64,000 bases of DNA. Source: Dyadobacter chenhuakuii. Its GTDB lineage: Bacteria; Bacteroidota; Bacteroidia; Cytophagales; Spirosomataceae. The first letter of the stretch is position 1. The number at the start of each line of letters is the position of its first letter. The translations under genes and the position numbers were made by a program. Under the pieces are notes generated by a model. The model saw only the letters and a list, made by a program, of their open reading frames with translations, was not told the origin of the DNA and made no database searches. The stretch is taken from contig NZ_CP098805.1 of the NCBI RefSeq assembly GCF_023821985.2, positions 2,852,001 to 2,916,000 of the forward strand. Direction: 5' to 3'. Shown piece by piece: positions 6,826 to 11,037 of the stretch.

Positions 6826-8322
6826 ATGAAAATCCTAAATGTTGAACAGATTCGCGCACTGGATGCCTATACTATTGAAAATGAGCCGGTTTCGTCGCTT
6901 GATTTAATGGAACGGGCTTCAAAAGCATTCGTGAGATGGTTTTGCGACCAATTTGTAAATACACGCCCTGTTGCTATTTTTTGTGGCAAAGGAAATAATG
7001 GCGGGGACGGACTGGCGATTGCCCGGATTTTGAGCTCCAATAATTATGATGTTCAAGTTTACATCGTTGAATACACAGACAAAGCTTCTCAGGATTTTCA
7101 GAGCAACCTAGCCCGTTTAAAGGATCATTTGCAACCCGTTACTATCACTGCCCAGGGTTCATTCCCAACATTGGCACCCAACGTGATTTGCATTGATGCC
7201 TTATTAGGATCCGGTTTATCAAGACCCGCCGAAGGGCTGTTGGCGCATGTAATTGATTCTTTAAATGCACTTCCCAACAAGCTGGTTTCCGTCGACATTG
7301 CAAGCGGGTTGTATGCTGATAAAAGCAATCAAAAGGATGACCCGATAATAGAACCTGACTTCACCGTCTCATTTCAGCTGCCAAAGATTGCGTTTATGAT
7401 GCCTCAAAACTCGAAATTTGTGGGTTCATGGCATTTGGTGGACATTGGTTTGCATGAAGAATTTATTAAAAATGCAGAAACGCCTTACCATTATACAGAC
7501 AAGCGCACAGCAGAAAAACTAATTAAGCTAAGGGACAAGTTTTCTCATAAAGGCACTTTCGGGCACGCATTGCTTATGGCAGGGAGTTACGGCAAATTGG
7601 GCGCTGCCGCCCTTTCGGGCAAGGCTTGTCTCAGGTCCGGCGTCGGTTTGCTGACCATGCACATTCCATCCTGCGGATATGACATTATCCAGATTTCCAT
7701 TCCCGAGGCAATGGCCATTACGGATCAGAATGCCAAACATTTAAGCGAAGTAACGGATCTCACATCTTACTCAGCCATCGGCATCGGCCCGGGCGTTGGC
7801 AAAGACGCTGCGACTGTTCAAGTTGTAGAACAACTGTTGGATGGCATCAATGCGGATGATATAAAAGCCAGATTGATGATTGATGCGGATGCCTTGAACA
7901 TTTTGTCAGAAAACCGGCACCTGCTGGATAAATTACCCGAAAACACTGTCCTAACCCCACATCCCAAAGAATTCCAGCGCCTGGCAGGAGAAAGCAAAGA
8001 CGAATTTGAACGCTTACAAATCGGCATTGATTTTGCCAAAAAACACAAAGTAATTATCTGTCTGAAAGGCGCCAACACAGCCGTTATTCATCCAAACGGC
8101 GAGGTGCATTTCAACTCCACCGGCAACCCCGGCATGGCCACAGGCGGCACCGGCGACGTGCTTACAGGGATAGTAACCAGTCTTTTAGCCCAAAAATACG
8201 AACCTGAGACAGCGGCAATCCTGGCAGTATACCAACACGGCCTGGCAGGTGACCGCGCCGCCGAGCAACGAGGACAAAGCGCGCTGATCGCTTCGGATTT
8301 GGTGGAGCATTTGGGTTGGTGA
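6826..8322 (+). CDS. nnrD: Bifunctional NAD(P)H-hydrate epimerase / ADP-dependent dehydratase
   Basis: 498 residues with two domains. Residues 1-220 form the YjeF_N epimerase, with G54-K-G-N-N-G-G-D-G62. Residues 235-498 form the ribokinase-like dehydratase, with T-G-G-T-G-D444-V-L-T-G, where D444 is the expected catalytic Asp. Together they repair the hydrated forms of NADH and NADPH: the epimerase interconverts R and S forms and the dehydratase uses ADP to restore the S form. It is divergent from rplS with 131 bases between the starts. No defect is seen. Confidence 0.93.
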
Positions 8323-8400
8323 AAAGTTTTTGTTTAAATCTTTCGTTACTTAATTGAGAAAGCCACGTCTAAATGAGCGTTGCGGCGATATTAATAGGTC

Positions 8401-8419
8401 AATGTGACAATCTCACATT
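8401..8419. promoter_or_regulatory. Palindromic operator candidate of the toxin-antitoxin pair
   Basis: Seven-base arms AATGTGA and TCACATT form a perfect inverted repeat around a five-base spacer, ending 13 bases before the toxin start codon. The position fits an operator for autoregulation by the antitoxin or complex, as in many toxin-antitoxin loci. A hairpin in the leader RNA is an alternative. Confidence 0.5.
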
Positions 8420-8432
8420 AATTAACTTATTG

Positions 8433-8708
8433 ATGGCGCCGTTAAAGTTTGATTGGGATCAAGGAAATGAGAAGAAATCCTTAGAGAAGCATCTCATTAC
8501 AAATATAGAAGCAGAAAGCATTTTCCTGGACCCAAAACGGAAATACAGGATAAGCAATAGGTCGGATGAGATTCGTTTTCTTTGCACCGGCAAGAGTTGT
8601 TCAAATAAAATATTAACTTCATACTACACTATCAGAAATGGAAAAGTTAGGATCATTGGAACTAGGGTCGCCAGGATTTCAGAAAGAAAGCGATATGAAA
8701 AAGAATAG
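8433..8708 (+). CDS. BrnT-like ribonuclease toxin
   Basis: 91 residues from the ATG at 8433; an in-frame ATG at 8373 lies upstream of the palindrome and would add 20 residues that do not resemble the family. The pattern matches BrnT: F-D-W-D-x(4)-K-K-S-L-E-K-H near the start, F-L-D-P in the middle, R-F-L-C-T-G-K-S, and a basic V-R-I-I-G-T-R-V-A-R-x-S-E-R-K-R-Y-E end. BrnT proteins are RelE-fold RNases that inhibit translation. The gene overlaps the following small gene by 14 bases, the usual toxin-first order of BrnT/BrnA. Assignment by motif reading; activity is inferred. Confidence 0.75.
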   Translation: MAPLKFDWDQGNEKKSLEKHLITNIEAESIFLDPKRKYRISNRSDEIRFLCTGKSCSNKILTSYYTIRNGKVRIIGTRVARISERKRYEKE

Positions 8709-8874
8709 CAAAATTTTTTACGTACCAACGATACCAAAACATGTTCGGCTACGCGACTTCGATACGAAGTTGTCGATTGATGACTTTGACGCGCTGGTTG
8801 AAATTTCGGGCGTAAAAGGCAAAGTAACCAAACAGGACGTTGACAGACTATTAAAAAGCAAGATCGGAAGTTAG
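8695..8874 (+). CDS. Putative antitoxin partner of the BrnT-like protein
   Basis: 59 residues from the ATG at 8695, which overlaps the toxin gene by 14 bases and implies coupled translation. The sequence has a basic start, a middle L-S-I-D-D-F-D-A-L segment and a K-V-T-K-Q-D-V-D-R-L-L helix. I do not see a clear BrnA ribbon-helix-helix, so this may be a divergent or different antitoxin family. Size, position and overlap support the antitoxin role, not sequence. It is followed by 27 bases and then the convergent feoB. Confidence 0.55.
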   Translation: MKKNSKIFYVPTIPKHVRLRDFDTKLSIDDFDALVEISGVKGKVTKQDVDRLLKSKIGS

Positions 8875-8901
8875 GCTGAGTTTACCATTTCGATGCATCC
8901 T

Positions 8902-11037
8902 TCAGCTCAAAACCTGATAAACCACAAACGCCGATACATAAGCCAGCACCATTAAATAGGCTAGCTGGATCAACGGCCATTTCCAGCCGTGGGTTTCGCG
9001 TTGAACTACGGCGATGGTGCTCATACACATCATGGCGAAAACATAGAATATCAGGAGCGAATAACAAACGGCTGGCGTGAACATGGCTCCGCCGGTTTCT
9101 GGGTTCTTTTCCTTTATTAATCTTTCCTTAACCGTCGGGACGTCCTCAAAATCACCGCTGATGCTGTAAATGGTTGCCATTGTTCCCACAAAAACCTCCC
9201 TAGCAGCAAATGAGGCGAGTAACGCAATGCCAATTTTCCAGTCATAACCCAATGGCCTTATTGCCGGCTCAATGAAATGACCGAAATGGCCGGCGTAGGA
9301 ATTTTCCAGGCGTGCGGACGAAATGGCCGCATTAATTTGTTCCTCAGAAGCTTGCGGCATGCTGGCAACAACTTTTTCCTCCGCCCTCTCCATTTTATCA
9401 CCCGGGCCATATGTGGATAATACCCAGAGAATGATCGAAATAGCCATAATCACTTTTCCTGCTTCCAGCACAAATGATTTCACGCTGTCATACATGGTAA
9501 ATGCCACATGTCCCCAGCGCGGCAGCTTGTATGAAGGCATTTCGAGCATGAAATAGCCGGGTTCTTTTCTGGGAATGAACAATGACAAAATCCAGGCAGT
9601 CGCCAGCGCACCTGCAAGACCGAGGAAATACAATCCGAACAAAACCAAGCCTTGTATATTGAGGAAGCCAAGCACTTTTGTAGGCGGCACAACCAAGGCA
9701 ATAAGAATGGTGTAAATGGGCAAACGGGCCGAACAGCTCATCAATGGTGTTACCAAAATCGTCAGTAAACGTTCATAACGGCTGCTAATGCTCCTGGTTG
9801 TCATGATCGCAGGCACCGCGCAGGCCACGCCTGAGATCAGAGGGACTACGCTCCGGCCATTCAGACCGAATTTGCGCATGAGTTTATCCATAATCACCAT
9901 CACCCGTGCCATATAACCCGACTCTTCAAGAATTGATACGAGCGCAAAAAGAATAGCGATCGGCGGAATGAAAACCAAAATTCCTCCCAGTCCGGCCATG
10001 ATGCCGTCGGTAAGGAGATCATTTAAAAATCCTTGGGGCAAAACTGCTTTTGTCCATTCAATAGTGGCCGCAATCCCCGCATCCAACAGATCGCTGGGAT
10101 AAGTTGCCCATGAAAAAATGGCCTGGAAAACCAGGATCAGGACGGCAGCGAAGGTAACATATCCCCAAAACGGGTGCATCAGAATGCTGTCCAGCTTTCG
10201 CGTCCAGTAAGGTTGCTCGGTTACACCTGCTGACTTAACTGATTTAGAAATTATCGGCTTTATTTTCTCATAGCGCGCAACGGTTTCAGCTGCCAGAAAG
10301 CCGTTTTCATCAAACTCGTGCTTTTCAATCAGTTTATCCAGCGCAACCCTTGCCGGCGTTTCCAAAAATGAGAAATTATCATGCTGGCAAACATATTGCA
10401 ACGCAACGTAATCATTATCAAGGTCATACATACGCCTGACATCGGCAATCAAATCGATCTCGTTGTCTTTGGGCTCATAGAAATAGGCAAGTTCCGGTTT
10501 TTCAACCCGATCCGCCATTTGCCGCACCGCATCTTTCAAGGCATTCAAACCTTCACCTGTGCGCGCATTGATGCGCACGACCGGCACATTCAGTTTCATA
10601 GCAAGCTGCACGGCATTAACCGTCAGGTTCATACTCGTAGCCACATCAAGCATATTCAGTGCCAGGACACACGGCAGGCCAAGATCGCTGATTTCAGTAA
10701 AAAGGAGCAGATTCCTTTGAAGATTCGACGCATCGACAACTACGATAACGACATCCGGGAAGTCAGGGTGGGCAGGGTTGGCGAGAATGTCCATTACGAC
10801 AACCTCGTCCCTTGATTTGGGATAAATACTATATGTGCCCGGAAGATCTACGACGATGGCAGCAGCATCGGGCTGGCCCGACTGGCCGGGAAGCTTGAAT
10901 GTTCCGGATTTTTTTTCAACGGTAACGCCCGGAAAATTCCCGGTCTTTTGGCGTAAACCGGTTAATGCATTAAATAATGTAGACTTGCCGGCATTGGGGT
11001 TACCAACCAGCGCAACTTTTATATTCCCTTGTTTCAA
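8902..11037 (-). CDS. feoB: Ferrous iron transport protein B
   Basis: 711 residues. The N-terminal G domain has G1 G12-N-P-N-A-G-K-S-T20, G3 D64-L-P-G and G4 N128-M-L-D131, giving GTP binding at the cytoplasmic face. From about residue 285 the protein is a polytopic membrane domain with the paired Gate motifs typical of FeoB. It imports Fe(II) across the inner membrane. feoA lies 29 bases upstream on the same strand, forming the standard feoAB operon. Length is within the usual range and no FeoC gene is seen. Confidence 0.95.
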   Translation of the reverse strand: MKQGNIKVALVGNPNAGKSTLFNALTGLRQKTGNFPGVTVEKKSGTFKLPGQSGQPDAAAIVVDLPGTYSIYPKSRDEVVVMDILANPAHPDFPDVVIVVVDASNLQRNLLLFTEISDLGLPCVLALNMLDVATSMNLTVNAVQLAMKLNVPVVRINARTGEGLNALKDAVRQMADRVEKPELAYFYEPKDNEIDLIADVRRMYDLDNDYVALQYVCQHDNFSFLETPARVALDKLIEKHEFDENGFLAAETVARYEKIKPIISKSVKSAGVTEQPYWTRKLDSILMHPFWGYVTFAAVLILVFQAIFSWATYPSDLLDAGIAATIEWTKAVLPQGFLNDLLTDGIMAGLGGILVFIPPIAILFALVSILEESGYMARVMVIMDKLMRKFGLNGRSVVPLISGVACAVPAIMTTRSISSRYERLLTILVTPLMSCSARLPIYTILIALVVPPTKVLGFLNIQGLVLFGLYFLGLAGALATAWILSLFIPRKEPGYFMLEMPSYKLPRWGHVAFTMYDSVKSFVLEAGKVIMAISIILWVLSTYGPGDKMERAEEKVVASMPQASEEQINAAISSARLENSYAGHFGHFIEPAIRPLGYDWKIGIALLASFAAREVFVGTMATIYSISGDFEDVPTVKERLIKEKNPETGGAMFTPAVCYSLLIFYVFAMMCMSTIAVVQRETHGWKWPLIQLAYLMVLAYVSAFVVYQVLS

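Follow-up and report, generated by a model that had tools for sequence, protein, structure and literature searches.

The window analysed here is a 64,000-nucleotide stretch of the 6.08-Mb genome of Dyadobacter chenhuakuii. Within it, the gap between an nnrD/yjeF-type gene for an NAD(P)H-hydrate epimerase/dehydratase (6826-8322, forward strand; Pfam Carb_kinase and YjeF_N) and the feoB gene for a ferrous iron transporter (8902-11037, reverse strand; Pfam FeoB_N, Gate and FeoB_C) holds two small forward-strand frames, at 8433-8708 and 8695-8874, which overlap by 14 bases. Both had been described in the initial annotation, which read the first as a BrnT-like toxin gene and the second as an unusual partner without a recognizable ribbon-helix-helix (RHH). 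Upstream of the pair, on the same strand, lies a promoter-like motif, GTTAC-N16-CGTCT (8345-8370), with a -35-like box at 8345-8349 and a -10-like box at 8366-8370, followed by an inverted repeat with arms of 7+7 bases (AATGTGA-CAATC-TCACATT, 8401-8419).

The BrnT pattern of the first gene was borne out by a match of its 91-amino-acid product to PF04365 with 53.1 bits, above the curated Pfam cut-off of 34.5. Residues K19 and H20 are invariant in all 10 alignment rows and correspond to K16 and H17 of BrnT by alignment with 3u97; according to PMC13284704, this Lys-His pair is needed for toxicity and matters in both BrnT and RelS. The toxin is under purifying selection, with a pairwise dN/dS of 0.11-0.17 in the 7 computable pairs, the remainder being saturated. 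Given that BrnT is an RNase toxin that cuts RNA, as stated in PMC11980606 and PMC5086665 and as is also known for the family, an RNase and growth-inhibiting action is predicted for this protein. The initial annotation had preferred the shorter toxin start at ATG 8433 and had used the inverted repeat as its support. The start itself stands, while the support comes from GTTAC-N16-CGTCT instead: a longer frame from ATG 8373 would begin 2 bases past the -10-like box, and the transcript expected from this motif would begin after ATG 8373, so that the longer frame is disfavoured.

The partner gene encodes a putative antitoxin of 59 amino acids, or of 78 if translation begins at ATG 8638. Neither form matched Pfam up to an E-value of 10, and searches of NCBIfam, PHROGs and PADLOC returned nothing meaningful (best PHROGs E-values 0.07 and 0.14), so that the profile search proposed in the initial annotation for the 59-residue protein yielded neither a BrnA/CopG_antitoxin match nor a match in any of these family libraries. 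A partner profile run against PDB sequences found unrelated enzymes at best (E 0.08). The start is uncertain between the two lengths. ATG 8695 is without counterpart in five of the seven loci that carry the pair, where the only available starts are an 8638-type ATG or a TTG/CTG, whereas G072 and the toxin-less partner gene of G071 do have an equivalent; ATG 8638 has a counterpart in all seven pair loci, and this conservation may belong to the toxin, since the codon sits within the toxin 3′ coding sequence. The partner is likewise under purifying selection (pairwise dN/dS 0.10-0.37 in 9 computable pairs, the remainder saturated).

To place the toxin, a BrnT tree of 99 rows and 104 columns was used, in which many forks are unresolved and from which L010 (the same locus as L003), L166 and L172 (the last lacking BrnT) were left out. 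The ten toxins with partners of the window type (type A) form one clade with support of 100/95, and the sister of this clade (99/87) consists of five toxins with RHH partners (L104, L105, L106, L108 and L113). These sister partners, from other Bacteroidota, have 81-89 residues, in which a DTT-type N-terminus is followed by a C-terminal RHH, and the two that were searched, L104 and L105, matched CopG_antitoxin PF12441 with 39.3 and 40.7 bits. Partner labels on the tree were set by eye from neighbouring frames, and the 68 rows labelled 'R' comprise every partner outside the two RHH-less types; in a Pfam check of four such rows three were above the cut-off and L005 was below it (22.8 against 28). 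The second RHH-less type, marked by AVIKNxHT and also without a Pfam match, goes with another BrnT clade (100/99), and was seen at L014, L017, L029, L031, L032, L033 and other loci. Outside the window, the second brnT gene of the same genome (L002, G000:C1:5036752-5036910, minus strand) is broken into two frames by a run of T, next to an intact AVIKN-type partner, and at L119 and L146 BrnT and its antitoxin are apparently fused in one frame.

The lack of a recognizable RHH in the window partner was confirmed by Pfam and by fold comparison with a positive control. An AlphaFold2 model of the partner (mean pLDDT 78, pTM 0.44) gave 13 Foldseek matches with no RHH among them, and in a VIA comparison with 14 chains every Z stayed below 2. 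The AlphaFold2 model of the sister partner L104 (pTM 0.42) brought mostly RHH folds to the top in Foldseek, the first being the PutA RHH, CopASO and Arc, at probabilities of at most 0.99 and E-values of at least 0.18. Where such a partner came from was approached by Smith-Waterman comparison against shuffled sequences. The partners of G083 and G070 are linked to L007 at z 11.6 and 11.0, and L007 is linked to the partner of L004, a more distant relative found in a Chitinophagales MAG, at z 9.4. The L004 partner in turn resembles four sister partners at z 4.0, 3.0, 3.0 and 3.0, with 2 to 9 of 500 shuffles scoring equally high (z 4.0 and 2 of 500 for L104). A profile HMM built from all five sister partners matched L004 with an E-value of 0.0034 (Z fixed at 100) over HMM positions 3-45, that is, ahead of the RHH. 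The DTT--ID---P motif of the sister N-terminus is present in L004 and partly in L007, while a DTT/DST-type motif is absent from the window partner, which is linked to L020 at z 6.3 and to L007 at z 3.5. The link to a CopG-type N-terminus thus runs through the intermediates L004 and L007, since hhalign with the full partner alignment against the RHH partners found nothing; restricted to L007, L020 and L004 it gave an E-value of 0.018 at a probability of 2.6%. These comparisons suggest, and only suggest, that the partner is what survives of the N-terminal segment of an antitoxin of the CopG type, in which case that segment would be the one that binds the toxin and the RHH would have been lost rather than replaced.

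We next consider the distribution of the pair. The C-terminal end of nnrD was matched in all 48 genus genomes, and the nnrD-feoB interval (window 8323-8901; loci L042-L089) was searched in each. Toxin and partner are together at the site in 7 of the 48 genomes (G000, G056, G068, G072, G077, G079 and G083), the partner is there without a toxin in two (G070 and G071), no genome has the toxin without the partner, and 39 have neither gene. Since the G083 toxin is split over two frames by a frameshift, all six intact toxins at the site are accompanied by the partner, and three of the nine partners lack an intact toxin, a pattern that would follow from an antidote role of the small protein. Small overlapping genes that co-occur, with a toxin never found without its partner at the site, are what a type II toxin-antitoxin pair presents. 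Beyond this site, a search of 222 family genomes gave 8 partner matches, every one inside the genus Dyadobacter, and a partner model run on 390 order genomes recovered 8 genus genomes and four weak matches (L098-L101, E 0.002-0.006), none convincing outside the genus; these four were put down to chance, being located within longer frames or opposite them, with no visible adjoining BrnT frame. The window itself was the sole match among 395 phylum genomes at an E-value of 0.001. No partner match was obtained in 72,556 plasmid records, a phage search gave two distant BrnT matches, and 19 candidate stretches in viral contigs yielded no confirmed case.

The other occupants of the interval define it as an exchange site that carries the BrnT pair, a DUF433/DUF5615 pair, a lone partner or nothing. 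DUF433/DUF5615-type frames are present at no fewer than 11 of the 48 sites by sequence likeness, the families having been verified for the L044 pair alone, and an incomplete set of these frames is present at three further sites. On a tree of nnrD/feoB pieces, in which one of the 48 rows (L061) is without the feoB piece, the toxin-or-partner state changed at least 5 times and the DUF433 state 5 times. Close relatives carry different cargo: the pair in G068 against DUF433 in G084, the pair in G072 against DUF433 in G059, and the BrnT pair in G000 against a nearly empty gap in G051. The cargo states are weakly clustered, with 24 and 27 of 500 label shuffles equally low, consistent with cargo that is often exchanged or lost. 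In G081 the gap holds a frame (L047, 2046-2519) without a Pfam match at E 0.001, which we take to be reminiscent of a macro domain.

The upstream motif is conserved with the pair. GTTAC-N16-CGTCT is exact in six of the seven pair loci and in one of the two lone-partner loci (G071), and G083 has the variant GTGAC with a 15-base spacer. None of the remaining 39 nnrD-feoB intervals contains GTTAC-CGTCT, although one has a looser TTAC-CGTC match, and the motif is absent upstream of the sister-clade BrnT loci L104, L105, L106, L108 and L113. With NAA added, it occurred at 211 sites in the 48 genus genomes, as compared to 76 for a reversed control and 26 with a 14-base spacer; in the window genome alone the shorter pattern was not enriched (9 exact sites against 26 reversed) and the longer, NAA-containing pattern gave 3 sites against 2. 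Of these 211 sites, 130 were read in listing order up to G079, with the pair's own sites left out. Only three lacked a downstream frame, and the downstream frames mostly start 14-60 bases past the motif. By cluster names assigned by hand from family counts, the frames behind it included Gp49 (7 sites), HigB (6), RelE-type pairs (6) and DUF1016 (8), with smaller clusters of DUF433 (1), DUF6883/DUF4926 (2), KilA-N (2) and DUF5618 (2); other clusters were Wzz (17), a secreted protein (12), the gene after dnaA (8) and others. In the converse direction, among the HigB and Gp49 matches listed, and with one Gp49 locus left out as too short, the exact motif was present within 250 bases upstream of 1/30 HigB and 3/29 Gp49 loci, or 2/30 and 7/29 with one mismatch, against 0/59 in downstream controls. 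Several Gp49-type toxin genes (L342-L371) have GTGAC-N16-CGTCT upstream, a variant that, with the shorter spacer, is also that of G083. GTTAC-N16-CGTCTNAA was also seen ahead of many accessory genes of the genus, and likewise of the gene that comes after dnaA and of one of the Wzz type (L173, L175, L182-L311).

Promoters of extracytoplasmic function (ECF) sigma factors have the general form of two short boxes, and GTTAC-N16-CGTCT, with its two short boxes at a fixed spacing near gene starts, resembles this form. A sigma-70 scan of 8200-9000 found no site. CGTCT appears in listed ECF promoters of Sinorhizobium (PMC6180224). SigP/PorX was tried as a matching sigma system and set aside, as neither box occurs in the text of PMC8265659. 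The genus-wide set of motif sites is a possible ECF-sigma regulon, and the module itself would come under ECF control.

In contrast to this motif, the inverted repeat is probably a chance occurrence. It is present as the initial annotation had reported, 13 bases ahead of ATG 8433, and its proposed role as an operator is unsupported: when the 110 bases upstream were shuffled 1000 times with dinucleotide composition kept, 107 of the shuffles contained an inverted repeat with arms of at least 7 bases, and G072 (D. psychrophilus), which is the nearest relative, keeps 5 of the 7 palindrome base pairs and has two broken. The other five pair loci have no equivalent of the palindrome, two of them having different repeats. 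Autoregulation through this repeat, which the initial annotation had inferred, is likewise unsupported, given a repeat that could be due to chance and lacks conservation, and a partner without a recognizable DNA-binding domain; the module is probably not autoregulated.

Together, these data lead us to favour, as moderately probable, a type II toxin-antitoxin module made of a BrnT toxin and an RHH-less antitoxin derived from the CopG/BrnA type, expressed from an ECF-type promoter and located at an exchange site. In such a module the toxin would be an RNase that cleaves RNA, and the partner would be an antitoxin from a CopG/BrnA-type ancestor minus its C-terminal RHH DNA-binding domain, whose remaining short segment would cap or sequester the toxin and so neutralize it. 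With the autorepressing domain gone, the operon would be driven by an alternative sigma factor from GTTAC-N16-CGTCT, a kind of promoter that would also serve further toxin-antitoxin genes and accessory genes in Dyadobacter, and the module would occupy the nnrD-feoB site, where varied toxin-antitoxin cargo comes and goes. The suggestion of a new antitoxin family for BrnT in the initial annotation holds in so far as the partner is uncatalogued and tied to one BrnT clade; against it stands the suggested distant origin from a CopG/BrnA-type N-terminus, and the antitoxin role is putative.

One alternative sees in the partner a regular BrnA/CopG antitoxin that still binds the palindrome and autoregulates, its RHH having diverged past recognition. 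The AlphaFold2 model does contain two consecutive helices, 28-41 and 46-57, joined by a four-residue turn with RHH-like spacing, and the palindrome is plausibly placed. However, Pfam, Foldseek and VIA recover no RHH for the window partner, while Foldseek does recover RHH folds for the L104 control; the partners of L007, L020 and G068 stop short of the second helix or soon after it starts; and the palindrome has the chance-like and poorly conserved character described above, which together make this explanation quite improbable. Less easily dismissed, and in our estimate somewhat unlikely, is the replacement of the RHH antitoxin by an unrelated small BrnT-neutralizing protein with no descent from CopG-type antitoxins. 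It would account for the empty hhalign result and for the direct comparison of the window partner with the five RHH partners, which stayed at shuffle level (z -1.3 to 0.1); but L004, which branches first within the clade of type-A toxins, resembles the sister N-terminus in 4/4 comparisons, and stepwise links at z 9-12 join it to L007 and to two Dyadobacter partners.

Another proposal denies the small frame any antitoxin function, BrnT being inactive and hence tolerated and the frame a passenger. That the toxin is broken or absent at 3/9 partner sites would suit it, yet it is hard to reconcile with the purifying selection on the partner and with its persistence at sites that have a broken toxin or none, as well as its constant presence beside an intact toxin at the site, and we regard it as very unlikely. 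As for the motif, its frequent position ahead of accessory and transposase-like genes is what might be seen if GTTAC-N16-CGTCT were another regulator's binding site, or a remnant of a cargo-carrying mobile unit, and not a promoter. The rigid 16-base spacing (211 against 26 sites), the short distance from the motif to most downstream frames, its recurrence before the gene after dnaA and the Wzz-type gene, and the occurrence of CGTCT in Sinorhizobium ECF promoters all argue for a promoter and leave this alternative unlikely. Returning to the RHH-less module under an ECF-type promoter, a wider proposal would be that one ECF-type sigma factor governs a set of toxin-antitoxin and accessory modules in Dyadobacter and that the BrnT module went furthest, its antitoxin having shed the DNA-binding domain and its expression being set by the alternative sigma factor in place of autorepression; this is put forward tentatively, as a possibility short of an even chance.

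Type II antitoxins usually serve as both antidote and repressor. The pair resembles BrnTA of Brucella abortus in having a BrnT-family toxin gene first and a small antitoxin gene second, but BrnA has a C-terminal RHH and controls brnTA transcription, as given in PMC11980606, whereas the window partner has no recognizable RHH. The Bacteroidota pairs of BrnT with CopG_antitoxin PF12441 (L104, L105, L106, L108 and L113) are nearer still, with toxins of the sister clade and an N-terminal motif common to L004 and partly to L007; they differ in antitoxin length (81-89 amino acids with an RHH, against 59 or 78 without) and in lacking the promoter motif upstream. In PaaR2-PaaA2-ParE2 of E. coli O157, as described in PMC8630535, the antitoxin is also without a detectable DNA-binding motif and transcription is controlled otherwise, and the authors ask whether an ancestral DNA-binding domain of PaaA2 decayed; that system has a ParE-type toxin and a separate repressor, PaaR2, whereas the Dyadobacter pair lacks a third gene and has an ECF-like promoter. 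Mycobacterium tuberculosis RelS-RelI likewise combines a BrnT-like toxin with an antitoxin other than BrnA, but PMC13284704 reports a putative HTH region for RelI. A literature search covering mostly openly accessible papers found no description of an RHH-less BrnT partner, nor of such a motif in Bacteroidota.

If the pair works as proposed, the antidote and repressor jobs would have been separated in one lineage while its nearest relatives still combine both. It would then allow the loss of a DNA-binding domain from an antitoxin to be traced, which is what PMC8630535 leaves as a question for PaaA2, against a sister clade that keeps the domain, and the cost and order of that loss would be open to study by partner swaps between the sister modules. 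The common promoter motif, in addition, makes it possible to examine concretely if an alternative sigma factor switches several of the genus's toxin-antitoxin modules together.
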